DNA of 64,000 bases from Halogeometricum rufum (lineage in GTDB: Archaea > Halobacteriota > Halobacteria > Halobacteriales > Haloferacaceae), in the NCBI RefSeq assembly GCF_900112175.1, contig NZ_FOYT01000001.1, positions 744,001 to 808,000 of the forward strand, given 5' to 3'. The notes beneath the pieces were generated by a model. It did no database searches. It was not told the origin of the DNA and saw only the letters and a list, made by a program, of their open reading frames with translations. Position 1 is the first letter of the stretch. Every line of letters begins with the position of its first letter. Positions 19,089 to 33,894 of this stretch are shown piece after piece. A program made the translations under genes and the position numbers.

Positions 19089-19162
19089 CCGCTCTTAGCT
19101 CAGCCTGGTAGAGCAGCCGACTGTAGATCGGCTTGCCCCCCGTTCAAATCGGGGAGAGCGGA
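19089..19162 (+). tRNA. tRNA-Tyr (anticodon GTA)
   Basis: A 74-base cloverleaf: acceptor CCGCTCT (19089-19095) pairs with AGAGCGG (19155-19161), the discriminator is A, the D arm is GCTC-AGCCTGGTA-GAGC, the anticodon stem GCCGA/TCGGC encloses the loop CTGTAGA with anticodon GTA, and the T arm is CCCCG-TTCAAAT-CGGGG. The C1:G72 pair is the hallmark of archaeal and eukaryotic tRNA-Tyr. No intron is present and CCA is not encoded. Confidence 0.97.
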
Positions 19163-19191
19163 CTTTCTCACTGTCTCGACACCGGGAGATT

Positions 19192-19286
19192 TCGGCTTGT
19201 CCCCCGCTCCCGTGAGCGAAGCGAACGGGAGGCAGCGAGGCGAGCGAAGCGAGTCTCCCTCGCTTCAAATCGGGGAGAGCGGACTT
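19192..19286 (+). repeat. Broken duplicate of the tRNA-Tyr 3' half with a 57-base insert
   Basis: 19192-19206 repeats tRNA positions 19128-19142 (TCGGCTTGCCCCCCG) with one C-to-T change, and 19264-19286 repeats 19143-19165 exactly (23 bases, T arm through acceptor and three flanking bases). Between the two halves lies a 57-base segment (19207-19263) built of two hairpins: CTCCCGT/ACGGGAG (19207-19213, 19225-19231) and GCGAGG/CCTCGC (19235-19240, 19258-19263), each with GAGCGAAGCGA in its loop. The pattern suggests an old integration or excision scar at the tRNA gene that later took up a small palindromic repeat. Confidence 0.75.
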
Positions 19287-32221: not shown

Positions 32222-33894
32222 TGGGCGACGGCGCGTCCGGTTCGGAACGCGACGGAGACGAGGACGGCGACGCCGGCGGCGCGCGGACGCTCCTCGTCGC
32301 GGGCACGGCGAGTCACGTCGGCAAGAGCACCGTCGCTGCCGGCCTCTGCCGACTGCTCGCCGACCGGGGGGTGAGCGTCGCGCCGTTCAAGGCGCAGAAC
32401 ATGAGCAACAACGCCCGCGCGGTGCCCGTCGCGCCGGCCGTCGCCGGCGGCGGTCGTTCGGACCCGGACACGGACGCGGACGCCGCCGACACCGCGCGCA
32501 CCGGCGACGCGTTCGGCGAAATCGGCGTCTCCCAGTACGCGCAGGCCCGCGCCGCCCGCGTGACGCCGACGACGGACCACAACCCGGTCCTCCTGAAACC
32601 CCGCGGCGAGGGGGAGTCGCAGTTGGTCGTGAACGGCCGCCCCACCGGGAACCACGCCGCGAGCGACTACTACGAGGCTGGCTGGCACCGCGCCCGCGAC
32701 GCCGCCGCGGCGGCCCACGCGCGACTCGCCGAGCGACACGACGTGGTCGTCGCCGAGGGCGCGGGGTCCATCGCGGAGATAAACCTCCACGACCGCGACC
32801 TGGCGAACGTCGAGACGGCGCGCTTCGCCGACGCCGACGTGATTCTCGTCGCCGACATCGACCGCGGCGGCGCGTTCGCCTCGCTGGTCGGCACGCTCGA
32901 ACTCGTCCCCGAGGACGTGCGCGAACGCGTCGTCGGCGCGGTGGTGACGAAGTTCCGCGGCGACGAGTCGATTCTGACGCCCGGCCTCGACGCGTTCGCG
33001 GACCGGACGGGCGTCCCCGTCCTCGGCGTCCTTCCGTACGACGACCCCGGACTCCCCGAGGAGGACAGCGTCGCCCTCCCGACGGCGGGCGAACGGGCCG
33101 TCGCGGGGACCTCCGGAGACGCGTCCGGCGGCGGGGGCGGGACCGACGCCACAGTCACCGTCGCCGTCCCGCGCCTCCCCCGCGTCTCGAACGCGACGGA
33201 CCTCGAACCGCTGGCGGCCGAACCCGGCGTCCGCGTCGCGTACGTTCCGCTCGACGCCGACCTCGCGGACGCCGACGCCGTCGTCCTCCCGGGGTCGAAG
33301 AACACCGCCGACGACCTGCGCGCCTGCCGCGAGGCGGGCCTGCACGACCGACTCAGCGCCTTTTCGGGGCCGGTCGTCGGCCTCTGCGGCGGCTACCAAC
33401 TGCTCGGCGAACGCCTCCTGAACGTCGGCGCGGAGAGCGTCCGCGGGGGCGGCGAACGCCCCGGCTTCGGCCTGCTCCCGGTCGAGACGACGTTCGCCGA
33501 GGACAAGCGCGTCGCGCCCGTGGCGTGGCGGTTCGACGGCGTCGGACCGTTCGCCGGGTTCGAGGGCCGCGTCTCGGGCTACGAGATTCACACGGGCCGG
33601 ACGCGCGTCGTCGAGACGGCGAAGAACGGAGAGGAATCGGGGCTCACGACGCCGTTCGCCGCCGACGGCCGCGACGGCGCGTCGCTCGGCGTCGCCCGCG
33701 GCCGCGTCGTCGGGACGTACCTGCACGGCCTGTTCGAGAACGACGGCGTCAGGGACGCCTTCTGCGACCACCTGTTCGACGCCGCGGACTCACCGCGTCC
33801 CGAACGAGGCGGCGACGACGACTCGCCGTACGACCGCGCGGCCGCCCTCGTCGCCCGCCTCGACCTCGGACCGGTCGGCCTCGGCGACGGTTGA
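32221..33894 (+). CDS. cbiP: Adenosylcobyric acid synthase (glutamine-hydrolysing)
   Basis: 557 residues, somewhat longer than the usual ~490-510 because of a variable acidic N-terminus and two low-complexity loops (residues ~76-100 and ~295-315). P-loop [41 protein letters not shown] and the glutamine amidotransferase nucleophile in [11 protein letters not shown] are all present, with [10 protein letters not shown] near the end. It amidates carboxylates b, d, e and g. Directly follows cobA in one unit. Confidence 0.93.

Follow-up and report, generated by a model that had tools for sequence, protein, structure and literature searches.

Archaeal integrases of the SNJ2, pNOB8 and SSV types use the 3' end of a tRNA gene as recombination core and leave a partial copy of the tRNA, at sites that flank kilobase elements carrying the integrase (PMC8371274). 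Casposons overlap only 4-7 distal tRNA bases, and possess terminal inverted repeats together with cas1 and polB. Haloarchaea also harbor short, transposase-free elements with palindromes or inverted repeats, the PATEs, SMRs and MITEs of Haloquadratum, among which PATEs and SMRs lack target duplication and PATEs have near-terminal palindromes related to IS605-type ends (PMC3119063). Single-stranded sites are known from integrons, where each unit of a tandem array downstream of a fixed site ends at its 3' side in an imperfect palindrome, attC, that folds strand-specifically and is conserved in structure but variable in sequence (PMC2727003); and from CTX-phi, a phage integrated as ssDNA by host XerC, whose attP consists of two inverted partial target copies that fold on one strand and mimic a double-stranded site (PMC5357621).

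Here we analyze a tRNA-Tyr locus of Halogeometricum rufum within a 64-kb stretch of DNA (hereafter the window, meaning the whole stretch analyzed), in which the 3' half of the tRNA gene is echoed downstream and split by hairpins. We tentatively interpret this locus as belonging to a family of gene-less, palindromic miniature cassettes that occurs across the class and is restricted to tRNA tails, and for which recombination would take place at the T-loop through a folded single strand; we rate this explanation as having somewhat less than an even chance of being correct.

Results

Structure of the tRNA-Tyr locus

The features of the locus are listed in Table 1. The 23-mer TTCAAATCGGGGAGAGCGGACTT is perfect in both core copies, spaced 121 bp apart (64 + 57), while the 5' part of the echo, CGGCTTGTCCCCCG, differs from the tRNA at one position. 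The copy of the tRNA 3' half is split by a 57-bp insert (19207-19263) consisting of a double hairpin. An earlier note on this DNA, made from the letters alone, had described just this arrangement, a split 3'-half copy with a perfect 23-base match, a 64-base offset and a 57-base double-hairpin insert, and its measurements are exact. GAGCGAAGCGA occurs once in each mini-hairpin (at 19214-19224 in the first), and these are its sole sites in the window, where shuffled sequence predicts 0.16; both hairpins can be sketched as a stem topped by a GA/GA pair and by GC on either side of a GAA loop.

Table 1. Features of the tRNA-Tyr locus and its echo (window coordinates)
Feature	Position	Strand	Basis
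tRNA-Tyr (GTA), echoed host gene	19089-19162 (end 19162/63)	+	ARAGORN; Rfam RF00005, 60.9 bits
Core copy 1, T-loop to 3' end plus flank, TTCAAATCGGGGAGAGCGGACTT	19143-19165	+	sequence
Spacer after the tRNA, variable	19166-19192	+	differs among genera
Echo, 5' part: copy of tRNA variable region and 5' T-stem strand, CGGCTTGTCCCCCG	19193-19206	+	sequence
Mini-hairpin 1, CTCCCGT-GA-GC-GAA-GC-GA-ACGGGAG	19207-19231	+	sequence; position kept in tRNA-Tyr, -Phe and -Pro echoes
Mini-hairpin 2 around GAGCGAAGCGA (19242-19252), slightly decayed	19235-19263	+	sequence
Core copy 2, the echo: direct copy of tRNA 3' end	19264-19286	+	identical to 19143-19165

The window unit is found again behind the second tRNA-Tyr of the genome (C5:236139-236255), 97% identical and inserted behind another, different unit; mini-hairpin 2 is intact on this copy (GCGAGGC-GA-GC-GAA-GC-GA-GTCTCGC). 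Among 148 family genomes searched, tRNA-Tyr genes of several other genera are followed by the window unit at 80-91% identity, and the 5' parts of the echoes at loci L093, L094 and L097 are longer, extending into the anticodon arm. Elsewhere in the window, ARAGORN calls a 98-base tRNA-Thr (CGT) at 33482-33579 that is absent from the Rfam tRNA search of the genome; a second tRNA-Thr (CGT) is located at C1:1161759, and the window call is probably a false positive.

Anatomy and folding of the units

A survey of all 47 tRNA genes of the genome identified a second, commoner form of unit, type A. Units of both types are bounded by successive copies of the tRNA T-loop/3'-end core, measure ~80-160 bp and are gene-less. 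Type A reads as tRNA 3' end, hairpin 1, inverted T-arm copy, inner hairpin and direct T-loop-to-3'-end copy, and is often found in tandem; type B, the form at the window locus, is a tRNA 3' half whose T-loop has the double hairpin immediately on its 5' side. Mean identity of echo to tRNA, taken across 73 tRNAs, climbs from background to 0.86 at position 53 and remains between 0.82 and 1.0 from T54 to the end, so the duplicated stretch starts at G53/T54, fading 2-5 bases past the end of the tRNA. The inverted arm matches its own tRNA better than other tRNAs (z = 10, 0/20000 permutations); a retroviral primer-binding-site-like reading of this arm was discarded, its best match being in the T-loop and not at the acceptor end.

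Covariation in the stems is strong. In a sub-family defined by the motif AGTCGCA...CCGTCT, stem P2, which lies outside the motif, is paired at 133/180 positions versus 59.8 +/- 6.3 after permutation (0/20000; 23 distinct arms), and the inner-loop pair is GC in 37 instances, AT in 7 and mismatched in 1, with G-C to A-T changes made jointly in 7/8 cases. Hairpin tips show tandem G-A pairs around a 2-bp stem, closed by triloops that are mostly GNA or tetraloops that are mostly GNNA, with few GNRA. GA/GA hairpins are strongly oriented, with 120 on the downstream sense strand, 32 downstream antisense, and 5 and 3 upstream, while hairpins having other dinucleotides in place of GA/GA number 1-19. The sense strand is predicted to fold better than the antisense strand in 62 of 78 units. 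By folding potential and covariation, a strand-specific folded palindromic site is predicted at each unit end.

Distribution across tRNA genes and genomes

In the H. rufum genome, 25 of 47 tRNA genes are followed within 350 bp by a direct copy of the stretch from T-loop to discriminator that forms their own 3' end, compared with two upstream copies (2/47), both due to duplicated neighboring tRNAs. Four genomes from three other haloarchaeal families range from 27 to 62%: 16/26 tRNAs downstream versus 1 upstream (G148), 12/25 versus 1 (G149), 11/24 versus 0 (G150) and 6/22 versus 0 (G152); a fifth genome, of which five tRNAs were sampled, has a downstream copy at one (G151, 1/5). The 3' ends of other tRNAs, sought as a control within those tails, were found in 28/4068 trials. 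Across named genomes of the haloarchaeal class, from Haloferax to Halorutilus, tRNA-Tyr has a copy downstream in 45/103 cases and upstream in 2/103. All direct tRNA-Tyr copies lie within 340 bp, except at one locus containing an inserted element (an integrase remnant in the array), and searches behind tRNA-Tyr found no gene-bearing (ORF) cassettes.

The pattern fades outside the class and outside tRNA genes. In seven genomes from other archaeal groups of the phylum, 1 of 45 tRNAs has a downstream copy, the sole case among these controls being a perfect 18-base copy of a tRNA-Ala 3' end 121 bp downstream (L347, in the non-haloarchaeal genome G155). No such hairpins were detected behind 17 5S and 13 SRP RNA genes; two 5S hits fall at sites where a second 5S copy probably follows.

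GAGCGNAGCGA has 83 genomic sites versus 90 for the reversed control pattern and was accordingly rejected as a genome-wide repeat. It is enriched only behind tRNAs, where 25 of the 83 sites lie within 450 bp downstream (0.4 expected, ~60-fold) and the remaining 58 lie elsewhere; the hairpin form of AGTCGCA..CCGTCT was found in this genome, by inspection, only behind tRNAs (3/3 hairpin-forming hits). A general intergenic repeat was dismissed on these two observations. Two tandem arrays with periods of ~78 and ~90 bp that contain GAGCGAAGCGA/GAGCGGAGCGA are located away from tRNA genes (G000:C1:580969-581213 and C2:95983-96173).

Turnover and sharing of units

Closely related genomes reveal how units change. 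At the two tRNA-Tyr loci of Haloferax the flanks are kept, while units between the tRNA and the distal echo come, go or replace one another, and the tRNA core marks the borders of these changes. At one and the same tRNA-Tyr locus, the unit is U1 in H. denitrificans and U2 in H. sulfurifontis; in strain Q22 both loci contain U1+U2; H. massiliensis contains an 83-bp unit twice in tandem; H. larsenii combines U2 with a type B unit; and H. elongans has type B at one locus. Tandem duplication of units is seen at L120. In one Haloferax array the middle core has a variant in common with the distal core and not with the tRNA. Unit bodies are shared between different isotypes, in 60 pairs within one genome and 119 pairs between families, with ends that match the local tRNA. 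In L173, L175 and L188 (Haloferax gibbonsii, H. prahovense) a doubled tRNA-Tyr is joined by a single N at a unit border, likely a scaffolding artefact from these repeats.

Integrase-bearing elements at the same cores

The same cores are occupied by larger elements. In G059 a ~9.9-kb element with an integrase gene sits between tRNA-Phe and its type B echo (L216/L217, C1 ~853300-863200), with a 34-bp att core, GAGCTGTCCCCCGTTCAAATCGGGGAGGCGGCAT; in G124 an integrase gene adjoins the tRNA-Tyr core. Because both att cores are plain T-arm and acceptor sequence, free of hairpins, the units are not simply the ends of integrative elements even though they have the core in common, and in neither of the two elements inspected do the joined ends correspond to a unit. 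In Halopiger djelfimassiliensis (L155:100-2330), a ~1.75-kb element with an integrase remnant lies between two identical 103-bp units behind tRNA-Tyr. The H. rufum genome contains 11 tyrosine-recombinase genes, none of them in the window. A tyrosine recombinase gene (G000:C1:676069-676551) is located just behind a tRNA-Asn/Met pair (C1:675384-675637) and likely marks an integrated element.

Searches against known families

Searches of Rfam 15 with the window locus and 7 further loci returned tRNA matches only, others falling far below gathering scores. Comparison with phage records and viral contigs gave no phage match and no exact viral-contig match to units, and plasmid matches were to tRNA or to short fragments, none relevant. 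We found no description of these tRNA-tail units in open-access papers, and the class-wide tRNA-echo pattern provisionally appears to be undescribed so far.

Discussion

The units are bound to tRNA genes, oriented, structured, matched to the isotype and cassette-like; they are gained and lost, occur as tandem duplicates, and are traded from one paralogous tRNA locus to another, the borders of these changes falling within the core. In the mechanism that we propose, the sense strand would fold when single-stranded, and its folded stem, in which the direct core pairs with the imperfect inverted copy, may mimic the double-stranded 3' end of a tRNA gene. A putative recombinase recognizing the nearly universal T-loop box GTTCRA would then join the folded unit to a tRNA or to an existing echo. 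Such an insertion would restore an intact tRNA and push the displaced 3' end downstream, where it would constitute the echo, and selection for a working tRNA may keep the core isotype-specific. It is possible, though doubtful, that these units represent a new kind of mobile DNA, namely gene-less, strand-folding cassettes that colonize the tRNA genes of a whole archaeal class, contain direct and inverted copies of the host tRNA end, and recombine single-stranded at the T-loop in an integron-like manner.

These conclusions must be tempered by several observations. Identical tRNA genes could have produced the swaps by recombining homologously or by gene conversion; the Haloferax middle-core variant fits target copying better than a plain crossover; the excess of G-T over A-C wobbles in the outer arm (44:9) could mean that the active form is RNA; and the analysis neither linked a recombinase to the units nor turned up an excised circle or, in contrast to integrons, a cassette carrying a gene behind tRNA-Tyr.

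Two rivals deserve serious consideration. The units may act as RNA, in which case hairpins would form in the trailing part of the tRNA transcript, with the inverted T-arm paired to the echo or to the tRNA, and the structure would serve termination, 3' processing, pre-tRNA stability or as a decoy, with turnover reflecting drift under structural constraint. The strong stem covariation, the sense-strand orientation and better sense-strand folding of the hairpins, the outer-arm wobbles and the strictly downstream placement are all consistent with this explanation, which we nonetheless consider unlikely. Units are lacking behind a third to three quarters of the tRNAs of each genome, and have no Rfam match; a conserved trailer would not be expected to show type B forms, tandem copies or the exact swapping of cassettes. 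The wobble evidence is mixed: two recurrent positions account for most of the outer-arm excess, and the inner stems are unbiased (12:8 and 10:10). Because haloarchaeal tRNA acceptor stems themselves contain only 3.3% G-T, low G-T in the units cannot separate RNA from DNA. GNA and GNNA loops on G-C stems form extraordinarily stable DNA mini-hairpins (PMC4686876), and since the units have such loops and few GNRA tetraloops, we lean toward DNA as the active form. Alternatively, a local mutational process may be responsible, whereby stable mini-hairpins behind tRNA genes under strong transcription provoke slippage or template switching on an exposed non-template strand, the tRNA end is thereby copied in both orientations, and the resulting copies spread through gene conversion, the cells being polyploid. 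This would account for the copying of its own tRNA by every unit, for tandem duplications such as that at L120, for arms that remain complementary and for an orientation that follows the tRNA, which would make the sense strand the one exposed by transcription. It seems improbable, given that a single body is found behind more than one isotype and in more than one family, that conservation extends to a specific apical tandem-GA/GNA motif and to the AGTCGCA/CCGTCT inner loop, that the borders of the duplication do not vary, lying at G53 and shortly after the end of the tRNA, and that tRNAs of other archaeal classes almost never have units and the 5S and SRP genes have none.

Derivation from known mobile elements is less probable still. 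A TnpA-like enzyme of an IS200/IS605-type transposon, inserting at the T-loop, could generate hairpin-rich, gene-less units through its strand-specific single-stranded chemistry, much as in haloarchaeal PATEs or bacterial REP/BIME pairs. We regard this origin as quite unlikely: each unit is flanked by a duplication of the tRNA end, most contain an inverted tRNA copy, and we found no related autonomous element. The earlier note had interpreted the locus as an attachment-site scar of one integrated element, since lost and later invaded by a small palindromic repeat. Part of this survives, in that the T-loop-to-3'-end stretch does act as a recombination border, with Haloferax units swapped whole between core copies, and integrases are indeed encountered at these tRNA cores (G059, G124 and L155). 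A single scar, on the other hand, was rejected on the genus, family and class surveys, which find like arrangements with isotype-specific ends, and no element between, behind half of the tRNA genes of this genome and throughout the class. The two outcomes that the note itself held would count against a scar, presence in relatives with no element and a match belonging to a general repeat, both largely obtain, the repeat being one of tRNA tails. Late invasion by a palindrome likewise finds no support, the double hairpin keeping its place in the echoes of tRNA-Tyr, -Phe and -Pro throughout many genera, and the plain att cores of the two inspected elements argue against integrated-element ends as the source of the hairpins. 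Even a broader version, in which the units are the attachment-site scars of many lost proviruses or plasmids, is very unlikely, as random internal deletions would not be expected to yield units that are small and uniform in size, have tandem-GA hairpins and inverted arms specific to the isotype, and share their bodies, and units match neither phages nor viral contigs.

If the cassette explanation is true, haloarchaeal tRNA genes head small, fast-turning hairpin arrays that annotation has missed and that would lend themselves to the study of site-specific recombination of single strands in Archaea, of why tRNA 3' ends attract integration and of how tRNA genes stay intact as DNA joins them. Even under its rivals, a class-specific tRNA-tail feature with strong covariation needs a function or a mutational mechanism, and the units would confound att-site calling and tRNA-fragment annotation in haloarchaeal genomes.

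Comparison with known systems

The units carry re-encoded copies of the end of their own host gene. Like archaeal integrase sites they have the tRNA 3' end as core and a partial tRNA copy, but at ~80-160 bp, and behind up to 62% of the sampled tRNAs of a genome, they are far from kilobase elements with an integrase. Casposons, defined by cas1, polB and terminal inverted repeats, differ from units of this size that carry no genes. With the PATEs, SMRs and MITEs they have in common a haloarchaeal host, small size, palindromic or inverted repeats and the lack of a transposase; these elements, however, are not described as tRNA-bound or as having tRNA-specific, target-matching ends, and the duplicated tRNA end that flanks the units has no counterpart in PATEs and SMRs. 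Integrons and CTX-phi serve us as working analogies, membership not being claimed because no linked integrase was seen and the units carry no genes. The resemblance to integrons lies in the tandem array downstream of a fixed site, the imperfect palindrome with which each unit closes on its 3' side and strand-specific folding with structure conserved over sequence; the differences are that the units examined are without genes or an integrase seen adjoining the array, that the target is a tRNA gene, and that the core is identical to the host tRNA. The resemblance to CTX-phi attP lies in two inverted partial target copies predicted to fold on one strand into a likeness of the double-stranded site; the arms of CTX-phi belong to a whole phage genome, whereas a unit is little more than the hairpin itself, both arms of which are together after insertion.
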